Shown in pieces: positions 18,255-27,081 of a stretch of DNA of 64,000 nt (positions are counted from its first letter, which is position 1; every line of letters begins with the position of its first letter). The position numbers and the translations under genes are program-made. The notes beneath the pieces are model-generated. The model saw only the letters and a program-made list of their open reading frames with translations, was not told where the DNA came from and searched no databases. The DNA is from Telmatactis stephensoni (lineage: Eukaryota > Cnidaria > Anthozoa > Actiniaria > Isophelliidae), in contig JALIZF010001680.1 of assembly GCA_029948255.1 (NCBI GenBank), positions 371,001 to 435,000 of the forward strand, given 5' to 3'.

Positions 18255-18819
18255 CACTGCAAGTAATCTTCAATAGCTGGAGGTGAAATACCAAAGTATG
18301 TAGATGTATTACAACCATACATACAGACACGGGCATTACGAAGGAGAGTGCACACTATGTACATCTTGCCAACTGCACTTAAATTGACCTTGCCAACTGC
18401 ACTTAAATAGTGTCACCAAACACCCATTCAACAGAAACCTGCACTTCACTCATAGACTTATTCCATGCTTGCTGAAGAGGTGCTCCTTTGAAAGGCCCTT
18501 GGAGGTGTATTCGCAGGGGGGAGGCTGGGTCACCATAAATGCTGCTGTAGTTGATTTAACACACCAGACCTGGCCAACATCCCACTGTCATGCCTTTTCC
18601 CTTCAACTGGATCATATAAATTGGCAACTAGACCATTAGGTGTAGCAATAGATTGGAATTTGATCGCATGAACTTTCTTGTGACCATTGTAAAGGCATTT
18701 CTGATTTTGCCCTGGCCGGCTAATAGGCCTTACAGTACCATCTACAAATCCCCAACAGTTCTGAAGGGCTGCTCCCTTATTGTGAATTGTTGTAGCAAAT
18801 TCTTCTAAATGTAAAGGAC
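18255..18819 (-). pseudogene. PIF/Harbinger transposase (DDE_Tnp_4), 3' part, split by the TTAA transposon
   Basis: On the minus strand, reading from 18819 down: LHLEEFATTIHNKGAALQN, then WGFVDGTVRPISRPGQNQ (first catalytic Asp), YNGHKKVHAIKFQS, KRHDSGMLARSG, then after a one-base shift IYGDPASPLR (second Asp), SMSEVQVSVEWVFGD (Glu), and KMYIVCTLLRNARVC. A tandem duplication of about 22 bp near 18370-18412 repeats LSAVGK. The 5' continuation is at 27082-27098, on the other side of the 8254-bp insertion. Known role of the family: cut-and-paste transposase with a Myb-like partner. This copy is dead. Confidence 0.8.
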
Positions 18820-18823
18820 TTAA

Positions 18824-19780
18824 GAGAGGGGGTCCCTAATTTTCGAAGTTTGAGTTGAAAACGCCAAAACGTCGAAACTCTGTTAGTCACATCAGGATAT
18901 AGGTCTAGGGCAACTATTATCAAAAATAATATTTTGAGTTTCAAGTTCTTATTTTTGGGGGGTAAGCGAAGGCACATTTCGATTTGGGGACTCTTGAGGC
19001 GCTTTTAGAGCACTTTTGACCAGTTCACTTCAAAGGTTGCATAAAAATCAACAACTAAACTCATGAAAATACGAAATGACATCCTTAACAACTAGATAAC
19101 AAACATTCTTTTCAGAAGCCAACCGAATGATTTAGTTCAAAATTGAATATTTAACAGATTTTTGAACTTAGCGCTATTCCAAGCAAATTTTTGAAACCTA
19201 AAAATTGCTCAAATTTATTGGATGATATTGCCACTGGTACATGGGCTACCGTGGAAATATTTTGGTGAGCTGATAGAAACGCTGCTCCCCTTCATAAATA
19301 TCAAATAAAATTTTGGGGCCATTCAAATAATATGTTAGAGCGTGAACACTGACCTGCCCTAAATGCCAAAAATCATGCAATTTGCATATTCTTTGGTCAC
19401 GCGACGATCACTTGTTTGTGAAATAGTAACCTAATTCACCAGTTATAACAGAACCCTAATAAAAGATTATAGCTGAATATTACTGACGACTACATTTACT
19501 TACGATCTGTTTGATTTTCAGAAGTAATTCTTCTGTTCATCTCACGTCCATCTTTGATCATCGCCGAAACCAACACGTTTGCAAAACTCAATTCAAACTC
19601 AAAACATAGAAAATCTCCAAAATTAATTATGAAATCAATTCCGAAACAAACTATTGCTATCTTTCTCTTAGCAAAATAAAGGAAATATTCCATGTTTTTT
19701 TCTCCGTTCTTGTGAAAAACTGAGAAGCATGGAGGATGAAGAAGATGATGCTTGCATGACACACAGGAGTCCCGTCTGTG
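18824..19780 (-). repeat. Left terminal inverted repeat of the TTAA transposon
   Basis: Inverted copy of 26100-27077. It contains on the minus strand (reading outward) an open frame that includes MEYFLYFAKRKIA, ELSFAN and SAMIKDGREMNRRITSENQ, followed by a GTAAGT donor-like site (about 19496-19700). Further out is a second shared frame beginning MCLRLPPKNKNLKLK (about 18777-18977). Confidence 0.85.
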
Positions 19781-19789
19781 AATGACCAT

Positions 19790-20617
19790 CGAGCTCAGTT
19801 GTTGTATCAGCTAATGCTACCTTTTTATGCTAATACTGAATTCAGATGACAAATGAAACACTTTCTAAGTAAAAATAAAACAACTGAACTGACTGAGTCC
19901 GTCGATCACAGCATACCACACAATTAACGACGCGGAGACATACGTCGACACTTTGTCTGACAACTTGTGTTGCCGTTTTGTCGAATTCAAGCTGATGGGA
20001 ATTCATGTCGAAGTTTCGAAGCAATCTTTATATTTATATCAATTTTTATAGTATCTTATATATCAACCTGATCGCATTGGCGACCGTCCTTCGTATTTTG
20101 CATATGGCAACCTGCGGGTACTCGGCATTTTTTGGTGGATCGTGTGGGTCGAGTAAATATTATCGCGAAGAAACATGCACACATATCCGTAAATGCCAAA
20201 AAGATATAAAAGGACATCTGAAGTCGTTGGAAGTTCGAGATACCTATTTACAAACCGAAGCGCAACTCCTCTTAGCCCGGGCAGGAACGTAGGTGTCGAT
20301 CAGTGAATAGACATTACCAAACTCCTACTTGCAAGCTGAGCTTTTAATTACAGAGCAATCTTTCACGATATATTTCCTCAATAAAGCTCACTTAATGTAC
20401 CTGTTACTCCATTTTCTTACCAATGAAATTTTCAAATTAAAGTAAAATATCCCCATGTAATTGACCAGGTGAAATATTCATACCTTTGTAAATATCTGAC
20501 GTCATTGCTAACAATGGTAAGCCGAATATTCATATTTTATCGCGCGGTTTTTTTTCTTTCTTTTTTCTTCTCTTTTCAAGTTAAGTTATATTTTATTGTA
20601 TTATTTTTGTACCGAAG
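19790..20617. other. Interior non-coding segment of the TTAA transposon
   Basis: Lies between the left arm and the first recognised exon. A plus-strand open frame at 20005-20292 includes CGYSAFFGGSCGSSKYYREE and could be an upstream exon, but I see no supporting domain. T-rich tract at 20548-20580 precedes the first exon. Confidence 0.35.
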
Positions 20618-20908
20618 GATTATTTGAAAACCCTCCTGACCTTACTATTTGCCCACTTCATCGCAATAGCTATGGAATACGGTGGCGATGCAACAAGAAA
20701 ACGTGCACTTCTCCCGCTGACTGGGCTGGGCATACTAAACCATTTAAAGGAAATCGTGGAATAACTCTCGTACAGTCGAAAGAGCTTTATAGGCTTACCA
20801 GTGTTTTAATGCCAGTTGGCTCTCGTAAGTTGAATGACCATGACATTTAATGACATTGATTTAAAGGATAATACAATTTTAGGAGGAAACATTATAGTGT
20901 TAATGTAA

Positions 20909-21349
20909 CCCTAGTAGAGAACTTTTAGTCAAACCGTTCAATAGTTAACTATGCCTAAATTAGATAACTATTTTACTAATTTAGCTGACGTCACATATAT
21001 TTGAAAAATCACATGCCGTAACGCCCTGAAAATCAGGGGGCCGTAGCATATAAGCAAACTAAAATTAAGCAAATAGAGAATGCGAAAAGAAACCTTTGAA
21101 AATTCGTGATCGATCGTTTGAAAACGTTCGTTCGAATTTATTTATTTTTTATAACTGCAAAACAAATTCAAAAAATGACACGTTAGAACCAATAATATTC
21201 ATTTTTTTTTCAACGTCCCCCCTGAATGACATGGCCGTTCGCTTGGCGTGCTTTTACGGCTATTTTAGGTGACGTCACCTAAATAGTTAACTAATTTAGA
21301 TAAACTTATCTAACTATTGACCGCTTTGACTAGAAGCACTCTAACAGGG
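20909..21349. mobile_element. 441-bp MITE nested in the first intron of the TTAA-transposon gene
   Basis: Ends CCCTAGTAGAG and, inverted, CCCTGTTAGAG. The arms share about 80 bp including AGTCAAA and CAATAGTTA, and each ends at a GACGTCAC. No coding sequence. It sits wholly within intron 20825-21465, so it need not disturb the protein. Confidence 0.7.
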
Positions 21350-21712
21350 CAAATACTGCTCCTCCACATAAACAGCCCATGCATGACTCGGAACATTACT
21401 TAGCTGTACAAGCAAACTGTACGGATAAACTAAAATCGACTGATGTCAGACTCTTTGTTTTCTAGCAATCTGTAAACAATGTCGATCAAAGCTAAAATCT
21501 GAGTCTGTAGCAGAAGATACTCTCTTCACATTTGCTTATAAAGATATGCCCAAGAAGAAAAAGACCGATAAGCTATTGCAAACATCTCATGAAGAGGATC
21601 AGGAACTCCTGCAATGTGCGGAAAAAGGTGTCAATCAAGCTCTACATGTAGCTACAGAAATAAAGGTTGGTCTTCATATCACGTTTGCCTTCACATTATA
21701 TATACTATCTGT

Positions 21713-22647
21713 TAGATAGATAGATAGATGGTTTATTAATATAATTCATTGCAGCCATATGGCTGAATTACAAACTATTTACAATATAATATTAAATAAA
21801 TTATTTATATATTTACAATGGTAAGGATTAAAGTTATGTATATGTAAACTCATCTTAAGAGGAGAAACTACTTATAAATATGACTTATAATAAAACTGTT
21901 TTTGCATCGTTCTGTCTTAACTCTAGGTAAGTTGAATTTCCTTTGGTGTCTAGTAGCGTAATTACTGTTTGATCGTACAGGAAGAAGATGGTAAAGTTTG
22001 TGCTCATTGTCATTAGCCAGCTCATTGAAGGTTCTTTGAGATATCTCTTCTCTTCGTTGGTGCAGGGTAGTTAAACCAGATTCCACGATGGCACTACTGT
22101 AGGAGAGGGAAGGAAAAATTATCCGTAGCGCACGTCTTTGCAGTCTTTCTAAGTCGTCGCTGAGATATCCAGGGAGAGCGCGATGGAAGACTGGGCACGC
22201 ATATTCCAGTAATGATCGTATACAAGTAATGTAAAAGATGATAAGATCTATTGGAGCAACGGCCGATTTCTTCAGTTGTCTAAGACAGTAGAGGCGGGAA
22301 GAGGCTTTCTTTACAAGCTGATTCACGTGAACGTTCCATTTAAGGTCACTACTGACATTCAGACCCAATATTCTTGCACTTGAAACTAATTCAAGAGGCT
22401 TGCCATTTATTTCCACGGGGTCGAAGTTTGGTGGTGACTTCGAGAAGCAAATTCTCAGTTCTTTACACTTGGCCTCATTGAGTTCAAAGTCGTTCAAGAG
22501 AGATTGCGCAGACAAGCTATCAGTTGCATCCTGTACATGGCTGTGGTCGCCTTTGGGAACGACCTCTAGGGCAGTGATGTCGTCCACAAATTTCCATACG
22601 TCAAGGCCTAGAGCGTGAATTTCATTGACCATGAGGAGGAACAACAA
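21713..22647 (-). pseudogene. 5'-truncated non-LTR retrotransposon (CR1/L2-like), reverse transcriptase C-terminal part
   Basis: Minus-strand frame 22647-21868 starts inside the reverse transcriptase at LFLLMVNEIHALGLDVW, followed by the catalytic KFVDDIT. It continues through SARILGLNVSSDLKWNVHVN, ASSRLYCLRQLKKS, LLEYACPVFHRALP and LQRRALRIIFP, the usual C-terminal series of CR1-type elements. The 3' end has a TATC-type microsatellite (TAGATAGATAGATAG at about 21713-21728), as in CR1/L2 tails. Everything upstream of the YVDD-type motif is missing. It lies in the intron/exon junction of the TTAA-transposon gene and abuts an inverted copy of exon sequence at 22648. Confidence 0.85.
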
Positions 22648-22868
22648 ATCAATTCTCCGTCGCAGCCTCGACCTTCGAACTTTGAAACCAACTCTATAAG
22701 ATCATCAAACGCTTCTACTATCAAACGCATTTTAAACGTCTGTGCAGCAACTGTGCGCAAATCTCTACAAGGCTTAGATTACATCTCTGCTGATGGTGGT
22801 CAAGCGTTTGATGATCTTATAGAGTTGGTTTCAAAGTTCGAAGGTCGAGGCTGCGACGGAGAATTGAT
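22648..22868. repeat. Perfect 66-bp inverted repeat at the LINE 5' junction
   Basis: Left arm 22648-22713 is the exact reverse complement of 22803-22868, with an 89-bp loop. The right arm is the normal exon encoding AFDDLIELVSKFEGRGCDGE. The left arm begins at the base where LINE homology ends, so it is an inverted copy of nearby target sequence placed at the insertion junction. Confidence 0.9.
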
Positions 22869-23006
22869 CAAGTGTTGGGAGAGAGCGTTAAAGACAAGTA
22901 AACAATATATCAAGACTGACTACAAGGTAAGCGTGCATGTTTCTACTCTCTTGCAAATACCGTTCCAAAGTCATGTAAAACTGTATGAAATTGCTCTTTC
23001 TCAACC

Positions 23007-23156
23007 GCCACCCGATTAGCTCAGTTGGTAGAGCATCGGTCTCTTGTGCGGGAGGTCGTGGGTTCAAGCCCCGGCCGGACCAACACTCAGGGTCTTAAAT
23101 AACTGAGGAGAAGGTGCTGCCTTTGTAACTACATCTGCAAATGGTTAGACCTTCAG

Positions 23157-23187
<31 letters not shown>

Positions 23188-23385
23188 TCCCGTCTCTCCA
23201 CACTTCACAATCTATAATTCGGAGGGACGTTAAAGAACCCACACCACTCTTCGGGTAGAGTAGGCAATGAAGTTGCCGGTGTGTGTGGTCTGGCTTACTA
23301 CACTACAGGATCCACAGTAATTGGCGAAAGCTGTTGTGGAGTCTCTGCCTTCATTGGAAGAAAAGCTAATAAAACCTAAAACCAA
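23007..23385 (+). mobile_element. tRNA-derived SINE
   Basis: Head 23007-23080 is tRNA-like, with an A box (TAGCTCAGTTGG, 23017-23028) and a B box (GGTTCAAGCCC, 23061-23071) at normal spacing. About 300 bp of conserved-looking body follows, including GGAGGGACGTTAAAGAACCC and ending in an A-rich AATAAAACCTAAAACCAAAA. These internal RNA polymerase III promoters drive SINE transcription. It sits in the intron 22927-23640. Confidence 0.8.
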
Positions 23386-26099
23386 AAACCCAATCGAGTG
23401 GTAAAAAAATTGCTAGTTATAAGTTTCGAAAATAAAAAAACCCGGAAAGGATGAACTATGTCTGAGTTTGCCTCAGTTAAACGTTAGGTTTGCATGTCAC
23501 AATGAAAGTAACCAGAGGTAGCGCAAGTAAACGCATGGCGGTCTCAGATCGATTTGGCGACAAGCGTCAACTTTGGATTCTTTTAAAATAGGTGCATAGG
23601 TGTGTATGCTCAGGCTAATTTGATTATATTTTATACTCAGGTGCACATAGCTGAAGTGTTCAACGTTGCTGACCATTGTTGTACGTATGCTTTAAGCTCA
23701 AGCAAAGAAGAAACTTTCCTCTCAAAATGTGATCACTCACACGATCAGTTTTGTTCATCTTGTGAGGAGCTGAAATCTGTCCTTTCCTCAATTGAATCTG
23801 CACTAACCACTGTTGGAAGCAGCTTTCCTGAAAATGAAAGAGATGATATGATATTTTCCTTCAGACTTGCAACCCAACAAATTACAGCGTGGAAAGCCGC
23901 AGTCAGTACAACAAGACAAAGCACGCACCGACGTTTTAGAACAACTAGACGAGAATGCTGTTCTTATTACACAAGATTGGGCGATGAAATTTCTTCCCCA
24001 AAAATACTGGGAAACACAGGCAGAGTGGTTCGGCAAAAGGGGCATTTCTTGGCATATTAGCGTGGTTGTGCGACGTTTGGCAGATGGAAAACTCCAGCAC
24101 CAGGCATTTGTGCACGTTGCAGAGAACTGTTCTCAAGACGCTAATGTTGTTATAGCGATGATTAGACATACTCTACAAGAGTAAGAAAAGGAACACCCCA
24201 CTATTTCACTTGCATTCCTCCGACAAGATAACGCTGGTTGCTACCACAATGGCAACATGTTGGTAGCATGCCACTTAATGGGTGAAGCAACCGGTAAAAA
24301 GGTAAAGCGCATAGATTTCAGCGACCCTCAAGGCGGAAAAGGCCCATGTGACGGCAAAGCTGCCACAATCAAAGCTCATGTTCGACGGTACATAAATGAA
24401 GGCCATGATGTTATAACCGCTGCTCATTTGAGAGATGCCATCCTATCAAGTGGTGGTGTGCGTGGCGTGAGGGTTGTGCTCATAGATGCAAGTATAATCA
24501 AGCCTGTAGAAACCATTAAAATCGACGGTATAAGCACCTTGAATGACATTTTGTACAAAGACAAAGAATTAACTGTGTGGAAAGCATATAAGATTGGAAA
24601 GGGAAAGACATTACTTTACTCAGACTTGCAAAGTAAGTAATTTACCCCATTTATGTGCATTTTTTTAACAAAAAAGCGGACTGCTTCTACTTATTTTTAT
24701 CATACAATTTTCAGATCCAAGTGGTCTGTGCTCCTCCCAAATCAGTAGCTGTTTTTCTTCTGGAGATTTCACCGACATCTCTGTTTCAAGACCTAAAGTA
24801 CCACAGAATAAAGATCCTCCAGTCAGTCAGAGTGATGGAAGGGAAGAGGAAAGCAGCCATGAGCCTGAATCAGGGCTTTTCTATTGTCCAAATGATGGAT
24901 GTGTAAAGATGTATCAACGGCATTCATCACTCGAAAATCATTTGCACTATGGGAAGTATGAGCTAGTACCAGAAAGAGAAAGCCTGTACGACAAAGCCAT
25001 TATAATGTATAGAGATAAGCTTTTGCATGGTTCAGGTAAACTGATAAACTTGTGAGTTGAGTGTTCTATAAATGCAAAATATTTTGTATAGAGGTTGATG
25101 AGGTATAGTGAGTAGTGGCAGAACAAGCAGAACCATTATGTGGACCGATACTGCTGCAAAAAGATTTTATTTTATTTATTTCGTTTATTACTTTTAGGTA
25201 TTCAACCAGACCTTTCAAGTTCAACCACTTCAGAAGGTCACTGCGAAAATGCTCTTCCTCAGGGTTGGGCATTAAAGGTAGCAAAATCAAATACCCGGTT
25301 CAACGATGAACAAAAGGCTTATCTCAATGATATGTTCGATATTGGTCAAGAAACAGGACACAAGCTCGATCCTGGGACGGTAGCACGAAATATGAGATAT
25401 GCAAAGGATTGTAGTGGAAAGCGTATTAGCGAATTCCTGACACCCAAACAAGTGCGATCCTATTTCTCAAGACGAGCTTCCAAAATCAAGAACAAACCAG
25501 AGGAAGCTGATGAAAATGAAGTAGCTGCCGAGGAACAAGACGCGTACTTCCAGACCCGTTCTTTAATAATAAACGAATGCCAACTGGTTCATCCAGTTGT
25601 CTTTGATACCTATAACCTTTGCCGATTAAGCGAATCCAATGGTTTGAAGAAGCTGAGCATTCCCTTGTTGCAAAGTATATGCGAACACTTTGACATTGAT
25701 ATCTCTGAAATTACAATTCACCGCAAGGACCCCTACATAAACCTGATAAGTGATATATATGGTGAAGTCATGCTCTTGTTCAACGTAAATGGTGGAATAT
25801 CCATTGATAAAAACTCCGCTTCATCCGAGAGTACCATCAAAAACATGACGCCTTCAAAAATGTTTACATAGTTTTAGCTTCCCTATCGCACCCGTTTATT
25901 CGAAGGTGAAGAAGGGGATTAAGTAAAAATATGAAAGAAAAGGAAGAGGCGGGTTGTTTCCTCATTAGCAGTGTTGATATGTAGCTCAGTTAAAAAGATC
26001 ATCTCCGTGCATTTGGCAACAAGAAGCTCAAAGGAACAACAAGTGGCCATGTTATGACCATACTAGTTTGGAGAAGTGGGGAGGGGCTGTGTAAATCTT

Positions 26100-27077
26100 G
26101 ACCGGAATGCCTGTGTGTCACGCAAGTATTACTTTCTTAACTCACCTTTTGGCTTGCTTGCATTGTTCATATATTATATCACAACAATTGCCAAAATGAG
26201 AGGAAAAAACATGGAATATTTCCTTTATTTTGCTAAGAGAAAGATAGCAATGGTTTTTTTTGGAGTTGATTTCATTTTGGAGATTTTCTCTGTTTTTGAA
26301 TTTGAATTGAGTTTTGCAAACATGTTGGTTTCGGCGATGATCAAAGATGGACGTGAGATGAACAGAAGAATTACTTCTGAAAATCAAACAGATCGTAAGT
26401 AAATGTAGTCGTCAGTAATATTCAGCTATAATCTTTTATTAGGGTTCTGTTATAACTGGTGAATTAGGTTACTATTTCACAAACAAGTGATCGTCGCGTG
26501 ACCAAAGAATATGCAAATTGCATGATTTTTGGCATTTAGGGCAGGTCAGTGTTCACGCTCTAACATATTATTATTTGAATGGCCCCAAAATTTTATTTGA
26601 TATTTATAAAGGGGAGCAGCGTTTCTATCAGCTCACCAAAATATTTCCATGGTAGGCCATGTACCAGTGGCGATATCATCCAATAAATTTGAGCAATTTT
26701 TCAGTTTCAAAAATTTGCTTGGAATAGCGCTAAGTTCAAAAATCTGTTAAATATTCAATTTTGAACTAAATCATTCGGTTGGCTTCTGAAAAGAATGTTT
26801 GTTATCTAGTTTATAAGGATATCATTTCGTATTTTCATGAGTTTAGTTGTTGATTTTTATGCAACCTTTGAAGTGAACTGGTCAAAAGTGCTCTAAAAGC
26901 GCCTCAAGAGTCCCCAAATCGAAATGTGCCTTCGCTTACCCCCCAAAAATAAGAACTTGAAACTCAAAATATCATTTTTGATAATAGTTGCCCTAGACCT
27001 ATATCCTGATGTGACTAACAGAGTTCCGACGTTTTGGCGTTTTCAACTCAAACTTCGAAAATTAGGGACCTCCTCTC
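26100..27077 (+). repeat. Right terminal inverted repeat of the TTAA transposon
   Basis: Mirror of the left arm. The same outward-reading frames are present, with MEYFLYFAKRKIA and MIKDGREMNRRITSENQ at about 26209-26399 ending at a GTAAGT, and MCLRLPPKNKNLKLK at 26924 onward. The arms differ by point changes and short indels, so they have diverged since insertion. Confidence 0.85.
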
Positions 27078-27081
27078 TTAA

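Follow-up and report, generated by a model that had tools for sequence, protein, structure and literature searches.

What kind of element occupies positions 18824 to 27077 of a 64,000-nucleotide stretch of the genome of the sea anemone Telmatactis stephensoni (contig JALIZF010001680.1, positions 371,001 to 435,000; this whole stretch is referred to as the window), and does it belong to a transposon superfamily that has already been described? Our answer to the first part is that it is a genuine DNA transposon inserting at TTAA, but a defective copy. As to the second part, we believe that it is a cut-and-paste transposon belonging to the superfamily Sola, and there most likely to the group Sola3, and estimate the probability of this reading, which compares the element with Sola by description, at somewhat over three in four.

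The element is 8254 bp long and extends between two copies of TTAA, at 18820-18823 and 27078-27081, which were placed by the alignment of its arms and by the empty sites considered below. The left terminal inverted repeat (TIR) starts with GAGAGG and occupies 18824-19776 of the plus strand, its best part ending at 19604; the right TIR occupies 26100-27077 of the minus strand. Both were delimited by the arm alignment and by comparison with another copy of the family (L010). When 18820-19776 is aligned with 26100-27081, there are 914 identities, 36 mismatches and 39 gap positions. About 950 bases are thus aligned, with three inverted segments (I1-I3) that are 93-99% complementary; the outer 790 bases or so are 98-99% identical.

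The family was sought in the full 483.5-Mb genome to which the window belongs, with the outermost 477 bases of the arm as the query; 40 of the 61 first-look candidates were scored, and the resulting count is a lower bound. At least 41 matches were obtained, 28 of them with identities of 94-100% and 13 with identities of 69-72%. Inspection of all 28 matches of the closer group showed that 27 (two in the window and 25 elsewhere) reach the terminus, every one of them reading TTAA followed by GAGAGG, and that the remaining match comes from the interior of a copy that has been interrupted. These 27 ends form 13 paired copies and one single end, so the family is multi-copy. Six copies, including that in the window, bear the gene and measure 7.3-8.3 kb; one pair spans 10.0 kb, and in two pairs the ends are separated by about 21 kb. 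A further four copies are short (1.0-1.5 kb) and retain the ends alone, with arms 99.7-100% identical at the aligned bases and at most 14 gap positions. In the more distant group, for which four loci were fetched and seven ends inspected, TTAA followed by GAGC was read at six ends and the seventh is disrupted.

The left flank of the element belongs to a gene for a Harbinger-type transposase (DDE_Tnp_4, E=4.1e-11). We joined the left flank, one TTAA and the right flank in silico and searched the genome with the product, which gave 14 matches: the two window flanks, four unbroken loci, and eight weaker ones (70-74%) that stop short of the joint. The four unbroken loci, read base by base, contain a single TTAA and no gap, with mismatches at 8 of 300, 7 of 268, 8 of 268 and 11 of 268 positions; therefore, TTAA is a true 4-bp target-site duplication (TSD), and the target is otherwise unchanged. 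An earlier note on this DNA, made from the letters alone, described a TTAA transposon with inverted termini of about 950 bp, and the arm identities, the uniform ends and the empty sites bear this out. The interrupted Harbinger-type fragment itself lies at 18533-18835 (minus strand), and its uninterrupted relatives are found at the four loci.

Is the protein encoded between the arms the one that moves them? At least 150 places in this genome match the catalytic exon, and four further families were examined, with these identities in the exon: L044 (52%), L043 (48%), L041 (44%) and L042 (41%). Long inverted repeats surround the gene in all four. TTAA was read at six of seven ends in the L041 family (the other has GTAA) and at six of seven in the L042 family, the seven in each case being taken from at least 24 same-family matches. 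The L044 family has it at 12 of 12 ends (11 fetched from 27 matches, plus L044; one flank occurs twice), and the L043 family at six of six left and six of six right ends (10 fetched from 37 matches and the two of L043 itself; one flank is represented twice). The window family begins with GAG, as do 11 of the 12 ends in L043, the twelfth being GTG, and L041, L042 and L044 begin with GTG; the outermost 44 and 34 bases of L043 differ between its two ends. Five families with inverted repeats and ends of the form TTAA followed by G(A/T)G imply that the protein is the transposase, as the earlier note had supposed for this uncharacterised cnidarian protein family when it suggested looking for other copies between inverted repeats with TTAA; these were found in the window family and in the four sister families. 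Since both TTAA and G(A/T)G recur across the families, they track the protein family rather than one element. In the L042 family (including G000:C927 21542-29031), the TTAA ends lie about 630 bp outward of the strongest inverted repeat, and a repeat finder alone would therefore misplace them.

There are also signs of purifying selection in the transposase family, as far as substitutions in its sequences suggest. The ratio of nonsynonymous to synonymous changes (dN/dS) is 0.14 for L010 against L017, 0.17 against L011 and 0.20 against L016, with few changes in each comparison. Between the families, the proportion of synonymous differences (pS) is 0.76-0.89, i.e., saturated, and that of nonsynonymous differences (pN) is 0.25-0.42.

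The wider protein family was collected with the joined peptide of copy L010 (889 amino acids, of which residues 133-640 were scored), and of the 8000 best candidates 634 proteins scored E <= 0.001. None of the 120 homologues listed out of these 634 has a precomputed Pfam domain. The named sources are sea anemones, stony corals, an octocoral, lancelets, a crinoid, a mussel and bdelloid rotifers. In the alignment of the 120 listed homologues, six columns are acidic in at least 97% (D208, D470, E482, D554, D583 and D595 in the numbering of P0001). We presume that D470, D554 and D595 (conserved in 120 of 120, 119 of 119 and 118 of 119 homologues, respectively) make up the catalytic triad; they were chosen because the motifs DWAMK, DNAGCY and GKGxCDR hold these residues and D595 is the last one, E482 and D583 being equally conserved. 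The second and third Asp are separated by 41 residues in 112 of 118 homologues, and a block of the form HC...C...H...C..C precedes the core in 117-118 of 118. The acidic series reported in the earlier note as D/D/E-like is thus present, and its third residue is D, which makes it D/D/D. Sequence searches of Pfam and PDB added only a C2H2 finger worth mentioning, PDB giving otherwise one unrelated weak match. With window pieces, the homologue alignment and single homologues as queries, no relative of the core was confirmed in Pfam, NCBIfam, PHROGs, PDB sequences, INPHARED phages, IMG/VR or prokaryote contigs.

Which described superfamily agrees with such an element? The Sola superfamily is said to have been founded in a paper by Bao et al. 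in 2009. The description of Sola given in part of PMC10741241 includes a DDD transposase, 4-bp TSDs, a length of mostly 2-9 kb and TIRs of 11-1124 bp. The window element has a D/D/D series (the triad being assigned by conservation), a 4-bp TSD, and a size and TIRs within the described ranges. Sola1-3 are subgroups of Sola according to a passage of PMC4455052, and a passage of PMC3627910 describes the TSDs of Sola2 as AT-rich and 4 bp long, AWWT and similar. Considering that Sola2 is of the AWWT type, TTAA points to another Sola group. That group is presumably Sola3, which we take to have TTAA as its target and GAG at its ends; on this assumption the target and the GAG terminus of the window family agree with Sola3, whereas the three sister families L041, L042 and L044 differ by ending in GTG. 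No statement of the Sola3 target was found in the portions of the literature that were searched, including those of PMC10294476, PMC8634313, PMC5199201, PMC11071193 and PMC10045372.

A possible bridge to a known family is DUF7869 (PF25273), a Pfam domain of unknown function with at least 182 matches in this genome, among them a copy in L066 (193-3115, G000:C115) and one just outside the window (C278:365248-365496). One of the three DUF7869 copies fetched has 42-bp inverted repeats at both ends and, if its terminus is GTGACC, AAAT flanks on both sides. DUF7869 is perhaps a domain of transposases, and it could be Sola2-like in view of the AWWT duplication mentioned in the passage of PMC3627910. 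By eye, it has the same order of motifs as the protein of the window family (D-Y/W-A, DN-x-x-G, G-x-x-K...D), but its elements differ in having a shorter protein, shorter TIRs and another target. One homologue (P0025) matches DUF7869 at E=0.17 over a stretch up to its second Asp, and in hhalign a stretch of the helical domain reached E=0.039 with a probability of 1.3.

Several points weigh against placing the element in Sola. The hhalign comparison of the core with DUF7869 is not significant, and 121 of 200 column shuffles reach its score. Membership would rest on features, one of them being the TTAA target and GAG ends that we take for those of Sola3. For baculovirus Sola insertions, AT and not a 4-bp duplication is tabulated in PMC5704228. 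Sola is described from bacteria too, and yet the prokaryote collection yielded no confirmed relative. Finally, dN/dS is 0.28 for L016-L017, 0.33 for L011-L016 and 0.97 for L038-L040 (the 64% family), again with few changes. The filing in Sola is likely but unproven, because the match concerns described features and not Sola sequences.

The main competitor is a TTAA-specific DDD superfamily, or a lineage as deep, that is separate from Sola and nameless. It would comprise elements that end in TTAA followed by G(A/T)G and whose proteins have a gap of about 41 residues from the second Asp to the third, the His/Cys block before the core, the C2H2 finger and the C-terminal domain; cnidarians, lancelets, a crinoid, a mussel and rotifers have relatives. 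We consider this improbable, though worth keeping in mind: among the proteins scanned, the catalytic core has no significant match in Pfam, NCBIfam, PHROGs or PDB sequences, and a literature search with five protein motif strings returned no paper on this protein family. However, absence from Pfam is weak evidence, as we have no indication that Pfam includes a Sola model, and every testable feature in the available description of Sola (PMC10741241) is present. The undescribed superfamily proposed in the earlier note, which did not consider Sola, therefore gives way to the likely filing in Sola.

That note also held that, by eye, the element matches neither Kolobok nor piggyBac, and by the signatures tested we agree. 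A derived Kolobok element would share the TTAA duplication, and the 5'-GA...TC-3' ends of the window family obey the 5'-RR...YY-3' rule given for Kolobok in a passage of PMC9587614, as do 11 of the 12 L043 ends (GA); but L041, L042 and L044 start with GT, only about 41 residues separate the second and third acidic residues, and the C/DxxH signature placed by the same paper between the second and third catalytic residues is absent in 119 of 120 homologues. By this published signature Kolobok was rejected, and we regard it as very unlikely. Even less can be said for a derived piggyBac element. It would account for the TTAA duplication, and the piggyBac triad is likewise of the DDD type; but the window family has GAGAGG ends and TIRs of about 950 bp, and no piggyBac model is among the Pfam matches listed (window pieces; 24 homologues, 25 of 30 families; 9 singly scanned). 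Since the piggyBac terminus is CC[C/T]T and its TIRs are 12-19 bp according to part of PMC2872659, terminus, TIR length and profile all disagree, and piggyBac was rejected. The least credible proposal is an unrelated gene inside a large inverted duplication that arose by chance or as an assembly artefact; this would explain the long arms and nothing beyond, 13 paired copies lie at different places, and the empty sites refute it.

In its mode of action, the element resembles other TTAA cut-and-paste transposons. The three Asp would form the active site of an RNase H fold and cut at the TIR ends, and the cut ends would join staggered TTAA targets; the N-terminal Cys/His domains, the helical domain and the C2H2 finger would bind the element ends.

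How much of the gene is left in the window copy? The gene described earlier, a single one on the plus strand with a Cys/His-rich N terminus, a C2H2 finger and a conserved C terminus, was recovered with seven exons mapped; AG acceptors precede exons 2, 3, 5, 6 and 7, and GT donors follow exons 2-6. Exon 1 (20104-20284; tblastn with P0012, E=5e-6) contains the start codon and the Cys-rich N terminus. Comparison with homologues and splice sites gave exon 2 (20618-20824), with the Cys/His-rich N-terminal domain, and exon 3 (21466-21665), with the end of the Cys-rich domain. A remnant of exon 4 (22714-22926), corresponding to the end of the helical domain, was found by comparison with L010 and tblastn. 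Exon 5 (23641-24632), which encodes the His/Cys block and the DDD core, was mapped by the homologue alignment and tblastn; the triad codons are at 23975-23977 (DWAMK), 24227-24229 (DNAGCY) and 24350-24352 (GKGPCD). Exon 6 (24715-25035) holds the finger at 24879-24944, a match to Pfam zf-C2H2 (PF00096) at E=0.15, below the cut-off. Exon 7 (25198-25871) encodes the conserved C-terminal domain, as seen by comparison with homologues and L010, and its frame departs from that of L010 near the end.

This copy is dead, so that the description of it as intact-ended applies to its ends and not to the rest. The donor of exon 1 is GA here and GT in all eight copies in which the junction was found among ten loci scanned. 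Most of exon 4 is gone: the copy is 98% identical to L010 on either side of 21715-22713, where 999 foreign bases stand in place of 827 bases of L010 that include most of the exon. The replacement lies on the minus strand and has a reading frame (21871-22701, minus) that matches PF09004 at E=1.5e-7; we call this fragment reverse-transcriptase-like by eye. At the edge of the insert, a 67-bp sequence of exon 4 has a perfect inverted copy (22648-22714 against 22802-22868), 87 bp from its source, which looks like a template switch at the insertion. Exon 5 is broken by a frameshift near 23900 and by a stop codon at 24182-24184. The third Asp is followed here by Gly, where 119 of 119 homologues have Arg. 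The copy is unable to make the whole protein and could move only with protein supplied by another copy. Copy L010 is also frameshifted, in exon 4; thus, no copy of the window family was shown to be whole among those inspected. The intron before exon 5 contains a tRNA-derived-looking repeat (approximately 23009-23400) with promoter-like boxes recognised by eye; ARAGORN found no tRNA at 22900-23500, and Rfam at gathering cut-offs gave no match in the window.

The chief use of the observation is in naming a large protein family that is still labelled uncharacterised. Among the 120 listed of the 634 related proteins, the named ones are for the most part labelled uncharacterized, hypothetical, unnamed or predicted, yet they belong to a transposase family. 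The ends, the empty sites and the conserved DDD series are ingredients for a profile and a masking library. Long open frames occur at many loci in this genome (e.g., several of 998 and 1045 codons, stop to stop), and they make the ongoing movement of some families a testable question.

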